Assembly: GCA_016194585.1 (NCBI GenBank)
Contig: JACQBG010000044.1
Span: forward strand, 1-64,000
Length of the DNA stretch: 64,000 nucleotides
Reading direction: 5' to 3'
Origin: Gemmatimonadota bacterium
GTDB lineage: Bacteria > Gemmatimonadota > Gemmatimonadetes > Gemmatimonadales > Gemmatimonadaceae
Below, one piece after another: positions 4,898-55,688 of the stretch (the stretch's first letter is position 1; each line of letters begins with the position of its first letter). The notes below the pieces were generated by a model. The model did not search any database, was not told the DNA's origin, and saw only the letters and a list, made by a program, of their open reading frames with translations. Position numbers and translations under genes: made by a program.

Positions 4898-4937
4898 TCC
4901 TGTAGTTCCTTTATGGTGTCGGGCCTGAACTGCAACG

Positions 4938-5087
4938 GCTGGCCACGGATTGCACGGATCTGCACTACATCTGCACGGATTCTTTCTACTCTTCTACTGC
5001 GCTCGCCACTCGGGACTTCGGCACCGCACGTCCAAGGAAAAGCTGTATCCGTGCGAATCCGTCAGATCCGTGAAATCCGTGGCCAGC
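4938..5087. repeat. Inverted repeat of the CACGGATT type inside the suf operon
   Basis: Arms of 25 bp at 4938-4962 and 5063-5087 are reverse complements with one mismatch. A second pair, GCACGGAT at 4973-4980 and ATCCGTGC at 5047-5054, nests inside. The arms consist of repeated 9 bp units such as CACGGATTT. The right arm ends three bases before the sufB stop codon, so a sufB-sufC transcript would carry a long stem right after sufB. It lacks the GGGGAACGACAGC core seen in related elements. It may be an mRNA-stabilising or attenuating structure; that is inference. Confidence 0.85.
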
Positions 5088-5089
5088 AG

Positions 5090-8389: not shown

Positions 8390-8438
8390 TCCGCGGCTGG
8401 GGTTCGGCGCGGCCTCACTCGGCGCGGCCTGGCCCAGT

Positions 8439-8794
8439 GCGCGCGGTCGGCGGGGCCTGGCCCGCCGCGGGCGGTCGGCGGCGAAGGTTCGCTCTGCCGC
8501 GCCCTGTGCCTTACACGCTGCGAGCCTCGCGCTGCGCGCGAGTCTCTTGCTACGGCACGGGGCTCGGCGACGCGAACCATCGCCGCCTCCCTGTCACCGA
8601 TCGTTGCAGGGAGAGCGCGATGCGCTCGCGCAGGAGGGCCCGCTGCGTAGCGAGAAACTCGCGCCGAGAGGCGCGAGGTTCGACGCGTATAAGCAGCAGG
8701 CCCGACGAAGCGAGTGCTTCGCGCTCGACCGGCCGCGCACGAACCGGCCGCGCACGAACCGGCCGCAGCGCCCGCGCGACCGGCGACCGCGCGC
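8439..8794. repeat. Large nested inverted-repeat spacer between convergent genes
   Basis: The 414 bp gap between the genes ending at 8389 and 8804 has no plausible gene. Outer arms at 8439-8453 and 8780-8794 match at 14 of 15 bases. Middle arms near 8525-8555 and 8646-8679 pair around GTAGC and ACTCGCGC. An inner pair, CTCCCTG at 8587-8593 and CAGGGAG at 8607-8613, closes the structure. Direct copies of CCGGCCGCGCACGAA occur at about 8729-8765, and CGAAGC/GCTTCG forms a small hairpin near 8707-8722. Its nesting resembles the other spacer elements of the window although the sequence differs. Confidence 0.6.
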
Positions 8795-8803
8795 GACGAT
8801 CGC

Positions 8804-9856
8804 TTAGTGCGTACCCCAGTTGAACAGCGGCAACACCGGATGCGACGAGCCGTTGGCGATGATGTTGATGATCCCCACCTGCACGCCACTCAGCGACCGC
8901 GCGTAGTTGAGCAGCCCGATCGTGATCCCGTTCTGCGCGCCCTTCACGTAGTTCGACGCCGAGAGCGAGACGCCCGAGAAGCTCCCGTTCTCGATGCGGA
9001 ACTGCGCCGGCGCGAGCACGATCGCCTTCGCGTCCTTGGCGCCCACGAACAGCGCGGCGAACCCGCCCTGCAGCCGCGGCGCGCCGATGCCCACGCCGGC
9101 GAGCCCGATCCCCTTGATCTCGTCGCCCGAGCCGGCGCCGATGCCGCCGATGACGATGCCGTCGATGCGTCCGCCCGCGCCGACGCCGACGCCGCCCACC
9201 AGCACCCCCTTCACCGAGCCACCCGCGCCGACGCCGATGCCGCCGATGGCGAGTCCCGTCAAGTGGCCGCCGACCCCCGCGCCGATGCCGCCCAGCGCGA
9301 TGCCGTCGATGTCACCGCCGACGCCCGCGCCGATGCCGCCGGCGATGAGCCCCCTCGCGTTGCCACCACCGCCGACGCCGATGCCGCCGACCATGATCCC
9401 ATCGAGGCTGCCCCCGGCGCCCAGTCCGATGGGAGCGAACGCGATGCCCTTCAACCGTCCGCCCGCGCCGGCGCCGATGCCGGCGAGGGTGATGCCGGTG
9501 ACGTCGTGCGACGCACCGACGCCGAGCACGCCGAGCGCGAGGCCGTTGATGTCGGCCGCGCCGGTGGCCGGCAGGCCGAGGGCGAGACCGTTCACCGTGC
9601 CGCTCATCGGATCGTACGGCGTCCACAGCGTGACGTTCGCGCCGTTCACCGTGCCGAGGTCGGAGTCGCGGTAGTTGAGGCGGAGACCGTTGACGTTCGG
9701 ATAGTCGCCGATGGAAATGATCGGGCGAGGCGGCTTGTCACTCGCCTGAGCGCGGAGAGTGGGAGTGGCGAGAACAGTCGCGAGGACAGTCGCGAGGGAA
9801 AGGCAAACCGCCGTGAGGCGGGCGCGTGAGGCGTGAGGCGGCTGACGGAACAGCAT
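8804..9856 (-). CDS. Secreted glycine-rich 16-residue-repeat protein
   Basis: Exported 350-residue protein of unknown role. After a signal peptide (cleavage near AQA, residue ~38) and a short domain with INGLALG, residues 122-249 contain eight successive 16-residue repeats of the form I-x-x-x-G-I-G-x-G-x-G-G-x-x-x-G, with a ninth degenerate copy to 264. The C-terminus (GLLNYARSLSGVQVGIINI... PVLPLFNWG) resembles surface-repeat proteins of the LA_2272 type, a weak recollection. The regular pattern suggests a beta-solenoid. ATG at 9856 is chosen for its GGAG six bases upstream; longer frames lack one. Residues 6-14 are encoded by a repeat shared with the divergent gene. Confidence 0.7.
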   Translation of the reverse strand: MLFRQPPHASRARLTAVCLSLATVLATVLATPTLRAQASDKPPRPIISIGDYPNVNGLRLNYRDSDLGTVNGANVTLWTPYDPMSGTVNGLALGLPATGAADINGLALGVLGVGASHDVTGITLAGIGAGAGGRLKGIAFAPIGLGAGGSLDGIMVGGIGVGGGGNARGLIAGGIGAGVGGDIDGIALGGIGAGVGGHLTGLAIGGIGVGAGGSVKGVLVGGVGVGAGGRIDGIVIGGIGAGSGDEIKGIGLAGVGIGAPRLQGGFAALFVGAKDAKAIVLAPAQFRIENGSFSGVSLSASNYVKGAQNGITIGLLNYARSLSGVQVGIINIIANGSSHPVLPLFNWGTH

Positions 9857-10091
9857 CCGTGGCTCCGATGCGGGTGGGTGTGGTCGCGACCCTGCGGTCG
9901 GGTCGCGACGCTGCCAACTCATACGAAGGGAGCGCGCGGGCAGTTTCGAGCCGCGCGACGCCGGCGAAGGGGTTTCGCCACCGCCGTCGCGGCGTATCTT
10001 CGGGCACAATCCCGTGCCGGAGCACCGAATGAGTGGCTACCTCTCCCGACCGTCCGAGTCGCGCCCGCCTCACGCCTCACGCGCCCGCCTC
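9815..10091. repeat. 27-bp inverted repeat pair inside two divergent signal-peptide segments
   Basis: The 27 bases at 10065-10091 are identical to the reverse complement of 9815-9841. Each copy lies just inside a gene, 15 and 36 bases after the respective start codons, and each encodes the same nine residues PPHASRARL in the N-region of a signal peptide. A further copy with one mismatch over 29 bases lies at 14905-14933 in a non-coding gap. The unit is built from GTGAGGCG and GGGCGCGTGAG pieces. Confidence 0.85.
9883..9909. promoter_or_regulatory. Perfect 10-bp hairpin in the divergent intergenic region
   Basis: GTCGCGACCC (9883-9892) and GGGTCGCGAC (9900-9909) are perfect reverse complements with a seven-base loop. 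It lies between two divergent genes, 27 bases upstream of the ATG at 9856. No T-run follows on either strand, so it is more likely an operator or an mRNA leader stem than a terminator. Confidence 0.5.
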
Positions 10092-11930
10092 CCGCTCCTT
10101 CGGCTCGCGCTCGCACTCGCCTTCGCGAGCGGCACCCTCGGCGCCCAGACCGGCCCCGACACCAACTACACCTTCAGCAGAGTCATGATCACGGCACGCG
10201 ACGGCGTGAAGCTCAACACCGTCTTCTTCGTGCCGAAGCATGCGACGGGGCCCCTCCCCATCCTCTTCGTGCGCACGCCGTACGGCGTGCCGGGGCCGAA
10301 CTTCCCGGTGAGCAAGGCATACGCCGAACTGCACGAGGACGGCTACATCTTCGCGATGCAGGACATCCGCGGGAAATACGAGAGCGAGGGGACCTTCGTG
10401 ATGCAGCGTCCGCCGCGCCCCATCGATGCGGGGGGCGGACGCGCCATCGACGAGAGCACCGACGCCTACGACTCCATCGACTGGCTCACGAAGCACATCC
10501 CGAACAACAACGGCCGCGTGGGGATGATGGGCGTGTCGTACCCGGGGTGGACGGCGGCGATGGGGATGCTCGACCCGCATCCGGCGCTCAAGGCGGTGAG
10601 CCCGCAGGCGAGTCCGAGCGACATGTGGATCGGCGACGACTTCCATCACAACGGCGCATTCCGCCTGAGCTACGGCTTCGAGTACGCGTACATGGTGGAG
10701 AACGCGAAGGGTGGTTCGCAGTTCGAGTTCGAGGATTACGACACCTACTCGTGGTACCTCAAGCTCGGCGCGCTGGGCAACATCCAGAAGAACTACCTGA
10801 AGGACAAGCATCTCCCCACGTGGGACGATTTCCAGCAGCACCCGAACTACGACGCGTTCTGGCAGCGGCAGGCGATGAAGCCCTACCTCACGCGCGTGAC
10901 GGTGCCGACGCTCAACGTCGCGGGATGGTGGGACCAGGAGGACTTCTACGGTCCGGTCACCATCTACCGCGAGCTCGAGAAGCACGACGCGGCGAACCGG
11001 AACTTCCTCGTGGTGGGACCGTGGCGGCACGGCGGATGGCGCGGCGGGCCGGGCGACAAGCTCGGCAACATCGGCTTCGGCGCGCCGACGGGGGAATACT
11101 TCCGCAAGAACATCGAGGCGCCGTTCTTCGCGTACTACCTGAAGGACAAGGGGACGCTCAAGCAGCCCGAGGCGACGGTGTTCGAGAGCGGGGGCGGCGA
11201 GGGACAGTGGCGCACGTTCAGCGCCTGGCCGCCGAAGGAGGCAGTGACGAAGTCGCTCTACTTCCACGCGAACGGTGAACTCTCATTCGCGCCACCCACT
11301 GACGCGGCGAACGCCAACGATGCGTACGTGAGCGATCCGGCGCATCCGGTGCCCTATCGCCATCGCCCCATCGAGCCGACGTATTACCCGAAGGGCTCGG
11401 GGTGGTACACCTGGCTGCTCGAGGACCAGCGGTTCGTCGACGACCGCGCCGACGTGCTCACGTACAAGACACCGGTGCTCGACGAGGACGTCGTCGTCGC
11501 CGGCGACATCGCGGCGAAGCTGTTCGTGAGCACGACGGGGCAGGACGCCGATTTCGTCGTGAAGCTCATCGACGTGTATCCGGAGAACTACGCGCCGGAC
11601 TTCAAGCTCGGTGGCTGGGAGCTGATGGTGGCGAACGACGTGATGCGCGCGCGGTTCCGCGACTCACGCGAGTACCCGACGCCGCTCGTGCCGGGGCAGG
11701 TGACGCCGGTGAACATCGACCTGCACACGCAGAGTTATCGCTTCCGGAAGGGGCACCGGATCATGGTGCAGGTGCAGAGCAGCTGGTTCCCGATCATCGA
11801 CCGGAACCCGCAGACGTGGGTGGCGAACATCTTCGAGGCGAAGGACAGCGATTACCAGGCGGAGACGCACCGGGTGTGGCGGACTGCTTCTGCGCCGAGC
11901 CGGGTGGAGATCGCGACGGTGAAGCCGTAG
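10029..11930 (+). CDS. Exported CocE/NonD-type alpha/beta hydrolase (S15 family)
   Basis: Serine hydrolase of the X-Pro dipeptidyl-peptidase / cocaine-esterase superfamily; substrate (acyl ester, amide or peptide) cannot be told. A signal peptide ends near LGAQ. The nucleophile elbow is GVSYPG, the acid is likely the Asp in WWDQEDFYG and the histidine lies in VGPWRHGGW. The last ~200 residues form the non-catalytic jelly-roll C-domain typical of the family (VVKLIDVYPENY, QSSWFPIIDRNPQ). The 633-residue length fits. ATG at 10029 has GGAG six bases upstream, better than GTG at 10014. Part of its signal peptide is repeat-encoded. Confidence 0.88.
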   Translation: MSGYLSRPSESRPPHASRARLPLLRLALALAFASGTLGAQTGPDTNYTFSRVMITARDGVKLNTVFFVPKHATGPLPILFVRTPYGVPGPNFPVSKAYAELHEDGYIFAMQDIRGKYESEGTFVMQRPPRPIDAGGGRAIDESTDAYDSIDWLTKHIPNNNGRVGMMGVSYPGWTAAMGMLDPHPALKAVSPQASPSDMWIGDDFHHNGAFRLSYGFEYAYMVENAKGGSQFEFEDYDTYSWYLKLGALGNIQKNYLKDKHLPTWDDFQQHPNYDAFWQRQAMKPYLTRVTVPTLNVAGWWDQEDFYGPVTIYRELEKHDAANRNFLVVGPWRHGGWRGGPGDKLGNIGFGAPTGEYFRKNIEAPFFAYYLKDKGTLKQPEATVFESGGGEGQWRTFSAWPPKEAVTKSLYFHANGELSFAPPTDAANANDAYVSDPAHPVPYRHRPIEPTYYPKGSGWYTWLLEDQRFVDDRADVLTYKTPVLDEDVVVAGDIAAKLFVSTTGQDADFVVKLIDVYPENYAPDFKLGGWELMVANDVMRARFRDSREYPTPLVPGQVTPVNIDLHTQSYRFRKGHRIMVQVQSSWFPIIDRNPQTWVANIFEAKDSDYQAETHRVWRTASAPSRVEIATVKP

Positions 11931-11943
11931 CGAGGTGCGGCCG

Positions 11944-12164
11944 AACGACGCCTCAGATCTTCGCAGGTACAGCCCAAGAACGCCGCGGATGTACGCGGAT
12001 ACAGCAGCAACAGCAATTTGGGGGAACGACAGCGTGGGACTCGCGCTGTCGTTCCCCCAACGTCTCTTCTGTCGTATCTGCGATGATCCGCGGCGTCGTT
12101 CAGTAGTACCCGCGAAGATCTGAGGCGTCGTTGAGCAGTACCTGCGCAAATCTGAGGCGTCGTT
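11944..12164. repeat. Three-tier nested snap-back element (GGGGAACGACAGC core)
   Basis: Outer arms at 11944-11970 and 12106-12132 match at 26 of 27 bases. A second copy of the right arm follows at 12138-12164 (25 of 27), a 32 bp tandem step. Middle arms are 11981-12002 and 12074-12095. The inner stem is a perfect 17 bp pair, 12018-12034 and 12044-12060, with a nine-base loop and core GGGGAACGACAGC. It lies between the convergent genes ending at 11930 and 12170. No coding frame is plausible. Related copies are at 19009-19154 and 38137-38316. Confidence 0.93.
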
Positions 12165-12169
12165 ACGGC

Positions 12170-12763
12170 CTACGCGCCGAGATCCAACCGCGTGTCGATG
12201 TCGCGCAGCACCCCCGCGTCGCTCACCGCCACCTCCGCCACGCGGTCGCCATAGCTCCGCACCACCGCCCGCGCCCCGCCATCCGCGACGGTGAGCAACT
12301 CGCGCCACGTGTCGCGGTGCGCGTACAGCGGATGCCCGCGCCGCCCCTCGAACGTCGGCACGACGAACGGCGCGCCCGTGCGCTTCGCGGCGTCGATCAC
12401 GGCGAGCACGGTCATCAGGTTCGGGAACGGATGGTCGACCGGCCAGATCAGCGCGCCGACGGAGGGATCGCTCACAAGCGCCGTCAGCCCCAGGCGGACG
12501 CTCACGATCTGCTCGCTCTTCGGGTTCGCGTTGCGCACGATCGTGAGGCCACGGGTGATCGCTTCCGTTTCCTTGGCCGCATCGCGCGGCGGGAGCACGG
12601 CGACGATCCGCTGCAGTCCCGCGTCGCGCACCGTCTGCGCGACCGTCTCGAGGAAGGTGCGCCCGTCGGCGAGCGTCGCGAACGCTTTCGGCTCGCCGAA
12701 CCGCGTGCCGGCGCCTGCGCCGACGATCACCACCGCCACGGGGAATGCGATCGTCGCGCTCAC
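12170..12763 (-). CDS. MobA/MocA-like nucleotidyltransferase
   Basis: Probable NTP transferase of the MobA-like family, possibly adding CMP to molybdenum cofactor for the molybdenum hydroxylase encoded next to it. The 197-residue protein starts with the glycine-rich nucleotide loop GAGAGTRFGEPKAF, has the metal-binding PVDHPF near residue 117, RRGHPLYA and a closing DIDT. The loop differs from the usual LAAGxSxRMGxxK in detail, so activity on another NTP is possible. The start is GTG at 12763, 37 bases after the FAD-subunit stop, with both genes on the minus strand and probably co-transcribed. Confidence 0.75.
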   Translation of the reverse strand: MSATIAFPVAVVIVGAGAGTRFGEPKAFATLADGRTFLETVAQTVRDAGLQRIVAVLPPRDAAKETEAITRGLTIVRNANPKSEQIVSVRLGLTALVSDPSVGALIWPVDHPFPNLMTVLAVIDAAKRTGAPFVVPTFEGRRGHPLYAHRDTWRELLTVADGGARAVVRSYGDRVAEVAVSDAGVLRDIDTRLDLGA

Positions 12764-16885: not shown

Positions 16886-16902
16886 CTGCTACAACCGTTC
16901 GT

Positions 16903-17001
16903 CGTTGATCGTGCATCGTTCATCGTCTACCGTGAACGATTCACGATGAACGATGAACGATGAACGATGCACGATGCACGATGCACGATGCACGATCAGC
17001 G
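16903..17001. repeat. Heptamer repeat (CGATGAA / CGATGCA) with inverted arm
   Basis: Three copies of CGATGAA (16944-16964) are followed by four of CGATGCA (16965-16992). Upstream, 16903-16926 carries the complementary strand order, so CGTTGATCGTGC at 16903-16914 pairs with 16990-17001 at 11 of 12 bases. It fills the gap between convergent genes ending at 16885 and 17037. The units are related to the CGGTGAA strings at 23.8, 26.1 and 43.7 kb. Confidence 0.85.
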
Positions 17002-17036
17002 ATTCACCGTTCGCGTCTCGTCGGGTTTGGGGCCCA

Positions 17037-19000: not shown

Positions 19001-19008
19001 AAGGGAGG

Positions 19009-19154
19009 CCTCAGATCTTCGCAGAAGAGGCCGCAGATCAACGCAGAGACTGCATGAATGGGGAACGACAGCGCGCTCGATGGGCGGTCGTTCCCCCATT
19101 TTCGCCGTGCCTGCGAGAGTCTGCGCCATTTCTGCGTAGATCTGAGGCGTCGTT
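19009..19154. repeat. Nested snap-back element, second copy of the GGGGAACGACAG core
   Basis: Outer arms starting GCCTCAGATCTTCGCAGAA (about 19009-19026 and 19130-19148) match at 18 of 19 bases, and the right side continues into GAGGCGTCGTT, identical to the 12.1 kb element. An inner stem pairs AATGGGGAACGA (19057-19068) with TCGTTCCCCCATT (19088-19100), with one extra base. Weaker middle arms are made of GCAGA units. It lies between the monooxygenase and the M23 peptidase, two co-directional genes. Confidence 0.85.
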
Positions 19155-29342: not shown

Positions 29343-29481
29343 GAGGGGGCCGGTCGAGGCGTAAAGGGAAGCGGCCGGACGCGGGAACGGAGCGGCCGGA
29401 GTGTGGTCTACGATTAAAGGGTCGGCAAGAAGTACGGATTCTTGCCTTCAGAGTCAAGGACGAGAGATTTCGTTCGGGGTC

Positions 29482-29672
29482 ACTGATGAGGGGGAGGGGG
29501 AGGGGGAGGGAAAGGGGGAGGGAGAGGGGAGGGAGAGGGGAGGGAGAGGGGAGGGAGAGCACTAACCGTAGGCCAGGTTTCCTCCCTCTTCCTGTGCCCG
29601 CTCTCGCCGTCCGCTCGCCCCTGAAGTGAGGCCCTCCCCCTCCCCCTTTCCCTCCCCCTCCCCCTGATCAGT
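29482..29672. repeat. Polypurine/polypyrimidine inverted repeat
   Basis: The left arm at 29482-29522 (ACTGATGAGGGGGAGGGGG...) and the right arm at 29632-29672 are reverse complements over about 35 bases, with one extra GGGGGA unit on the left; both end in an ACTGAT-type sequence. The left arm continues as repeated GGGAGAGG to about 29560. The G-runs could form quadruplexes and the arms a long stem or triplex. It fills the 372 bp gap between the divergent serine hydrolase and ECF sigma genes, where both promoters must lie. Confidence 0.85.
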
Positions 29673-29714
29673 AAACCTTCAGGGACCAGCACGTGACAGA
29701 CTGAACGGATCCGT

Positions 29715-38138: not shown

Positions 38139-38316
38139 GTGGGAGGAACTGACTTGCCACGGATTTCACGGAGAACGGCCGGATAACGCACGGATACAAC
38201 AAGAAAATGGGGAACGACAGCGTCGGATCCGGGCTGTCGTTCCCCATCATGTCTTTTGATCCGAGCTGATCCGGCAGTCCTCCGTGAAATCCGTGGCAGG
38301 CCGTTTCCTCCCACTC
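38137..38316. repeat. Nested snap-back element with CACGGATTT arms
   Basis: Outer arms of 37 bp at 38137-38173 and 38280-38316 match at 33 positions; they contain CCACGGATTTCACGGAG and GAGTGGGAGGAA. The inner stem, 38207-38221 and 38233-38247, is a perfect 15 bp pair with the core GGGGAACGACAGC and an 11-base loop. The core is the same as at 12.0 and 19.1 kb while the outer arms are of the type found in the suf operon gap. It spans the gap between convergent stops at 38138 and 38318. Confidence 0.93.
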
Positions 38317-38317
38317 C

Positions 38318-42033: not shown

Positions 42034-42043
42034 GTGGGAGGGA

Positions 42044-42189
42044 AGGTCCACCGCAGAGGACGCGGAGGACGCAGAGGACTACGAACGACCGGGGGAACTG
42101 CGTGCGGTGCCGGAGGTTACGGCCCGACCTGCAGTTCCCCCGTTTCAGTTGCAGTCCTCCGCGTCCTCTGCGTCCTCCGCGGTAGACCT
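42044..42189. repeat. Snap-back element with GCAGAGGAC nonamer arms
   Basis: Outer arms of 37 bp at 42044-42080 and 42153-42189 match at 33 positions. Each arm holds three consecutive nonamers of the form GC(A/G)GAGGAC. The inner stem pairs GGGGGAACTGC (42091-42101) with GCAGTTCCCCC (42131-42141) perfectly, with a 29-base loop. It fills the gap between convergent genes ending at 42033 and 42200. Confidence 0.92.
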
Positions 42190-42199
42190 GCTCTTCGTC

Positions 42200-54981: not shown

Positions 54982-55088
54982 TTGAGAGGGGGAGGGGGAG
55001 GGAAAGGGGGAGGGGGAGGGAAGGGGGAGGGGGAGGGGAGGGGAGGGGACGACAGAGGGAGGGGGGAGGACAGGAGCTTGCTCTCAAG
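54981..55088. repeat. G-rich tract upstream of pdxH with flanking 8-bp inverted repeat
   Basis: From 54985 to about 55070 the plus strand is nearly all purine, with more than a dozen GGGGG or GGGG runs separated by A or AA. CTTGAGAG at 54981-54988 and CTCTCAAG at 55081-55088 bound it as an 8 bp inverted repeat. The unit GGGGAGGGGGAGGGAAAGGG is the one seen in the element at 29482-29672. It could form stacked G-quadruplexes. The left boundary touches the pdxH start codon. Confidence 0.8.
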
Positions 55089-55154
55089 CTAGCGTCTCTT
55101 GCTGGCTGTTGCAGCGACATCCAGCTTTCGCTTCATGACGAGTGTGGAGCGACC

Positions 55155-55688
55155 GTGACCGGTTCCCCGGTTCCTGAAGGCACGCGCACGCATCGCAACG
55201 AAGGCGACACGCGGCCGCCGGTGCGCTGCGCGATCGTGACCGTCAGCGATTCGCGCACCGCCGCGACCGACGTGAGCGGCCCGCTGATGCTGCGGTTGCT
55301 CACCGAGGCGGGGCACGCGGTGGTCGATCAGGCGTTGCTGCGCAACGAAGAGGCGACGGTGCGCGCGCACGTGGCGGCGCAGCTCGCGCGTGCCGATGTC
55401 GACGCCGTGCTCCTCTCCGGCGGCACGGGACTCGGCAGCCGCGACCGCACGGTCGAGGCGGTGCGGCCGCTACTAGAGAAAGAGCTGCCGGGTTTCGGCG
55501 AACTGTTCCGCGTGCTCTCGTTCCAGGATCAAGTCGGCACGGCGGCGATCCTCTCGCGCGCGCTGGCGGGTGGCGCGAAGGGGAAGCTCGTCGTGTCGAT
55601 GCCCGGGTCGGCGGCGGCGGTGGAGTTGGCGCTCACGCGGATCCTGTTGCCCGAACTCCGGCACGCGATCCGCGAGCTGTCGCGCTGA
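55155..55688 (+). CDS. MoaB/MogA-type molybdenum cofactor protein
   Basis: Adenylyltransferase-like protein of molybdopterin synthesis, 177 residues. It has the family CAIVTVSDSRTAATDVSGPL, the molybdopterin-binding SGGTGLGSRDRTVEAV and PGSAAAVELAL. Whether it is MogA-active or MoaB-like cannot be read from the motifs. GTG 55155 has GGAG five bases upstream; the first 22 residues are a non-conserved extension. It is consistent with the molybdenum hydroxylase of this window. Its TGA abuts the convergent stop TCA as TGATCA. Confidence 0.88.
   Translation: MTGSPVPEGTRTHRNEGDTRPPVRCAIVTVSDSRTAATDVSGPLMLRLLTEAGHAVVDQALLRNEEATVRAHVAAQLARADVDAVLLSGGTGLGSRDRTVEAVRPLLEKELPGFGELFRVLSFQDQVGTAAILSRALAGGAKGKLVVSMPGSAAAVELALTRILLPELRHAIRELSR

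Follow-up and report, generated by a model that had tools for sequence, protein, structure and literature searches.

The 221-bp structure at positions 11944-12164 of the window (the whole stretch of 64,000 nucleotides analysed here, from a Gemmatimonadota bacterium) occupies the gap between two convergent genes and is probably an ORF-less, MITE-like member of an apparently undescribed class of small intergenic insertions, for which the name GxxExxY-class array elements is coined here. Copies of this family have inserted between genes and are associated with GxxExxY genes, the products of which may mobilise them, and an inserted copy would act in transcription termination.

Architecture and copies of the nested hairpin

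The element and its two neighbours, called with a custom codon-usage gene caller script, are made up as follows.

10029..11930, + strand: X-Pro dipeptidyl-peptidase S15 / CocE-type hydrolase gene (Pfam PF02129, PF08530), stop 13 nt from the element
11944..12164, no strand: complete ORF-less element, with the core hairpin inside nested inverted arrays of units, absent at the orthologous gene pair in four congeners
11944..11970, - strand: left outer arm, two ATCTGMG-type units of dialect A, 26/27 complementary to 12106-12132
11976..12002, - strand: left inner arm, pairs with 12074-12100 as two helices
12018..12060, no strand: core hairpin GGGGGAACGACAGCG, 17 bp perfect, loop of about 9 nt
12074..12100, + strand: right inner arm, partner of the left inner arm
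12106..12132, + strand: right outer arm, partner of 11944-11970
12138..12164, + strand: extra right outer unit, array expansion at a 32-nt step
12170..12763, - strand: MobA-like NTP transferase gene (Pfam PF12804), stop 5 nt from the element

Each arm is an array of units 9-10 nt long (ATCYGCGnnn, alternatively ATCCGTGnn), and the two sides mirror each other about a GGGGGAACGAC hairpin, so that folding of the copy gives a single long nested hairpin. A first-pass annotation of this DNA had described three nested stems of 27, 22 and 17 bp. The outer stem (11944-11970 with 12106-12132) does span 27 bp with one mismatch and the inner stem (12018-12034 with 12044-12060) is paired at 17/17 positions, but pairing is imperfect in the middle tier (11976-12002 with 12074-12100), where helices of about 9 and 11 bp flank a 3-nt internal loop in place of a clean 22-bp stem. 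The second copy of the right arm reported 32 bp further on is present at 12138-12164 and is 24/27 identical to 12106-12132; this "duplicated outer arm" is unit copy-number variation through a tandem unit, and a copy on contig C23 carries four right units at exact 32-nt steps. The predicted RNA fold of 11944-12164 is a single rod of -149 kcal/mol (z -13.2), equalled by 0/200 shuffles, while a search for inverted 27-mers allowing one mismatch and a spacing of up to 300 nt found three places in the 64 kb and none in any of 20 Markov shuffles. Words of GTGAGGCGG type also form a nearly perfect inverted pair of 27 nt (9812-9838 / 10068-10094) on either side of the start region of the hydrolase gene, and similar words are seen again near 14.95 kb.

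A search of the 3.34-Mb genome (G000) found more than 20 related places besides the window copy. The core copies that the first-pass annotation had placed at 19.1 and 38.2 kb lie at 19.0-19.16 and 38.2 kb, with at least 20 more genome-wide. Most copies share the core hairpin (GGGGGAACGACNGC...) but differ in the dialect of their arms: dialect A, that of the window copy, reads ATCYGCGnnnATCTGMGGCGTCGTT, dialect B reads ATCCGTGnnATCCGTGGC and dialect C reads TCCTCTGCGTCCTCCGCGG. The window-type core hairpin also occurs in other-dialect copies of G000 and of two further genomes, G011 and G017. Three other copies lie within the window.

19005..19154, no strand: second copy of dialect A, at a + strand gene's 3' end
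38165..38300 (borders approximate), no strand: copy of dialect B (CCACGGATTTCACGGA ... TCCGTGAAATCCGTGG) in a convergent gap, sharing the core hairpin of the window copy
42055..42190 (borders approximate), no strand: copy of dialect C (CCGCAGAGGACGCGGAGGACGCAGAGG ...) in a convergent gap, having a GGGGGAACTGC core hairpin

The convergent gaps holding the last two, 38139-38317 and 42034-42199, fold with z scores of -13.4 and -10.6. When 23 copies were placed relative to genes, 14 lay in convergent gaps, 9 in co-directional gaps and 0 in divergent gaps (p = 0.0012 for convergent and 0.015 for divergent placement, against the window's gene pairs), and the co-directional copies nearly always adjoin the 3' end of the upstream gene. 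Arms of the same copy agree better than same-tier arms taken across copies (24.1 vs 22.6 of 27 positions; 18 pairs, permutation p < 5e-5), and 223/260 core pairs are kept, as against 200 with the right arms permuted. In the orthologous copies of G000 and G017 three base pairs have changed on both sides. The arms co-vary and the genome has further copies, so that neither of the outcomes named as counting against the first-pass annotation was observed.

Comparison with Rfam gave weak, sub-threshold chance matches only. Outside the genus, dialect-A words had 0 exact matches in 84,980 species, a set from which the nearest genomes may be missing. Several other places in the genome carry related or similar structures: a mirror array of dialect B that lacks the GGGGGAAC core and lies in the co-directional gap between two minus-strand genes (4898-5089), a 414-bp convergent gap with GC-rich inverted words outside the described dialects (8390-8803, fold z -9.2), and a half element of two left units only beside a tRNA-like gene (locus L038, contig C41, 13398-13465).

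GxxExxY genes and insertion between neighbouring genes

The genome possesses three GxxExxY/PDDEXK_3 genes, of which one (contig C1) sits between dialect-A arms (GAACAACGCCGCAGATTGGCGCGGATACAACAGG ... CTGTAGTATCCGCGTGGATCCGCGGCGTCGTC) and another (contig C15) between dialect-B arms; a GxxExxY gene in G017 likewise carries dialect-A arms. At a threshold of 32 bits or more, inverted flanks in 41 relatives were found around 15/22 GxxExxY genes, the other 7/22 falling below 32 bits, and around 19/28 four-helix-bundle (IVP) genes, compared with 4/146 mispaired flanks and 1/64 other genes as controls. Dialect-B loci also led to genomes from about ten phyla, including Verrucomicrobia, Planctomycetes, Acidobacteria, Chloroflexi, Proteobacteria and Bacteroidetes, in which GxxExxY genes are likewise flanked by mirror arrays of 9-10-nt units. 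The 80 cross-phylum loci, taken from the matches listed, were drawn non-randomly, with one genome contributing several. Among them, inverted flanks are present at 13/21 GxxExxY genes vs 0/76 controls and, again among the matches listed, at 19/23 four-helix-bundle (23S-IVP) genes with 7-nt inverted arrays vs 0/87 controls. The unit words are near-identical in many phyla, and the unit sequence is shared beyond pairing alone. Dialect-B sites across phyla have an inverted partner on their inner side in 62/96 cases and on the outer side only in a handful, among the matches listed, and no cargo ORFs were seen inside dialect-B pairs of other phyla in the stretches fetched.

Repeated 5-mers in the flanks are spaced at 9-10 nt around GxxExxY genes and at 7 or 14 nt around IVP genes, which divides the arrays into two classes. 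The window feature has 9-10-nt mirror arrays and a dialect matching the arms around a GxxExxY gene, placing it in the first. The core hairpin of ORF-less copies is mostly absent from gene-bearing ones, so the ORF-less copies are not simple deletion derivatives. In another genome (G012, locus L204) a GxxExxY gene has the GGGGGAAC core hairpin in its flank, a possible link between gene-bearing and ORF-less copies, and on plasmid 1 of Gemmatirosa kalamazoonensis (L361) an ORF-less GACGCGGAT mirror array directly adjoins a GxxExxY gene. GxxExxY reading frames on contigs C1 and C15 (L193, L191) can start within or beside the left arm (MFTDDRRIFTED...), and arm sequence may therefore be annotated as protein N-termini.

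For the IVP class, two of the three four-helix-bundle genes of G000 lie between other mirror arrays, and the arrays of this class look like intergenic relatives of the intervening sequences (IVS) of 23S rRNA. Within the window, the convergent gap at 16886-17036 is filled by a 7-nt mirror array (ACGATGA/ACGATGC) that fits this class and has weak chance matches to Rfam miRNAs. The divergent gaps 29343-29714, with an inverted pair, and 54982-55220 hold arrays of GGGGGAGGG type, words of which also flank a four-helix-bundle gene on contig C8 (L195).

Evidence for insertion comes from congeners in which the neighbouring genes are close together. The transaldolase and pyruvate kinase genes of 12 congeners are separated by 0 to about 55 nt, as against 578 nt in G000, where the gap is the dialect-A GxxExxY element, an insertion shared with G017. 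At the one ORF-less locus compared, the convergent hydrolase/MobA pair, the gap is short and element-free in G003, G006, G008 and G014, and in G006 and G008 it holds an ordinary GC hairpin flanked by A and T runs. The element-free loci could in part reflect loss. On a plasmid of Sphingomonas parapaucimobilis, a GxxExxY gene with inverted arms sits between fabD and fabG. Neither a transposition event nor a target-site duplication nor an excision product was observed, and the flanks are too diverged for exact borders to be read. Of the mobile MITE-like unit, bidirectional terminator and structured RNA offered by the first-pass annotation, the MITE-like unit is best supported, by the dispersed copies, the element-free related loci and the gene-bearing insertion with the same arms.

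The GxxExxY protein belongs to TIGR04256 / PF13366. In an alignment of 36 proteins D62 is invariant, and E72, K74, Q86 and Y90 are each present in at least 90%. The combination of D, ExK and QxxxY is the signature of RecB/Cas4-like PD-(D/E)XK nucleases, and the protein, having both D...ExK and QxxxY, is predicted from its residues to be such a nuclease. GxxExxY is not a known transposase. No solved relative was found in the PDB, and phage sequences gave no match. Within the literature covered, which left out subscription journals and preprints, the repeat words are not described as an element and GxxExxY receives only passing mention; no publication naming the array-element class was found there.

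Alternative origins and a proposed mechanism

The strongest rival, though an unlikely one, holds that the structure is a non-mobile bidirectional terminator or 3'-end RNA structure inherited vertically in the lineage, its likeness to GxxExxY flanks arising because GxxExxY genes need terminators too. Copies do stand at gene 3' ends, the arms co-vary, and G000 and G017 have kept one element at a shared locus. The core hairpin (12018..12060) is the only terminator-like site found in 11800-12300, and T makes up 35% of the sequence after core stems vs 15% in the window. The window element has the GC-rich stem, with its tail CGTCTCTTCT on the + strand only, but T runs of four or more follow just 3/58 core stems. 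Further points against this rival are the congeners that lack the element at the hydrolase/MobA pair, the gene-bearing copy that is an insertion, and the unit sequence that many phyla have in common beyond its pairing. The 3'-end placement and T-rich hairpin flanks also fit a terminator role for an inserted element. On the favoured reading, the element would have replaced the ancestral terminator and probably now ends transcription of both flanking genes.

A by-product of mutation is a still less probable origin. Tandem slippage and template-switch (quasi-palindrome) correction would build mirror arrays at 3' ends that have neither function nor mobilising protein, and the variable unit number, the matching of arms within copies and the many low-complexity dialects in one genome are all as such a process would leave them. 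It leaves unexplained the class-specific association with genes and the unit period, the insertion at flush gene pairs and the near-identical words in many phyla. That a RAYT (Y1 tyrosine transposase) moved the structure as a REP/BIME element is scarcely credible, and this identity was rejected: the copies are dispersed, intergenic, paired and at 3' ends like REPs (PMC3733652) and the arms end in GGCGTC, similar to the CGTC tag, but the genome has no Y1_Tnp and the single units are not palindromic, folding without a hairpin (z 0.1 to 0.8) where REP units do fold.

For GxxExxY-class array elements, a mechanism may be proposed in which rare gene-bearing copies encode a RecB/Cas4-like nuclease that acts on array DNA or on the array hairpin, and this putative nuclease mobilises ORF-less copies in trans. 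Its target could be duplex sites about one helical turn apart, or single-strand hairpins. Gene 3' ends would tolerate an inserted copy, as its core hairpin and arms would stop transcription from both sides; the ancestral terminator would be replaced after insertion, and the element would then serve as a two-way terminator and possibly as an RNase III substrate, like ribosomal IVS (PMC4990558). Slippage and template switching would keep the arms matched and alter the number of units.

It is conceivable, at a little under even chances, that these elements form part of a superfamily across phyla, in which 9-10-nt arrays are moved by the GxxExxY RecB-like nuclease and 7-nt arrays go with Avd/S23-like four-helix-bundle proteins, the majority of copies lack an ORF and serve as hairpins at gene ends, and the 23S rRNA IVS are a special case. 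Such a superfamily would account for many "low-complexity" repeats lying between genes in numerous phyla, and would link the ribosomal IVS with a general type of insertion. GxxExxY and the non-rRNA four-helix-bundle IVP are both widespread and have no known role, and each gains a context inside its own class of mirror arrays; linkage to an element family suggests what the GxxExxY gene may be for.

Comparison with known systems

Intrinsic bidirectional terminators are similarly GC-rich hairpins between convergent genes, and congeners have one at the window locus, but the window element is about 200 nt long, multi-tiered, part of a repeated family and with hardly any T run. The REP/BIME/REPIN sequences associated with RAYT or TIRYT (PMC3733652) are likewise paired intergenic repeats at 3' ends in many phyla, and differ in having self-palindromic units and a Y1 transposase in the genome. 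Arrays of the TAACTGA heptamer, which are reported as direct repeats upstream of starts in Beggiatoaceae, Cyanobacteria and Bacteroidetes (PMC4679880), resemble the present arrays in their short words, patchy distribution across phyla and a mechanism that is not known; their 7-nt period would fit the IVP class and not the window element, and they are a lead only.

The IVS of 23S rRNA, with their S23p / four-helix-bundle ORF, are alike in small size, inverted ends and a single small ORF, and the heptameric repeats reported beside the ORF of the Coxiella IVS (PMC4990558) match the 7-nt arrays flanking IVP-family genes here. They lie inside 23S rRNA and carry S23p, whereas the window element is ORF-less, lies between two protein genes, is built of 9-10-nt units and belongs with GxxExxY. 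Identity with the IVS was rejected, the site being outside 23S rRNA and the element having no S23p/IVP ORF.

The window element would behave as a MITE does, and perhaps as a terminator. Like MITEs it is short, ORF-less and intergenic, with terminal inverted repeats, dispersed copies and, for the one ORF-less locus compared, element-free orthologous sites in four congeners, and BrickBuilt, a MITE of Porphyromonas gingivalis (PMC4596501), combines tandem units with inverted ends as seen here. It differs from MITEs in that its ends are arrays of short units, and where MITEs have a transposase partner, the gene-bearing partner here shares the ends and encodes a PDDEXK_3 PD-(D/E)XK protein instead.
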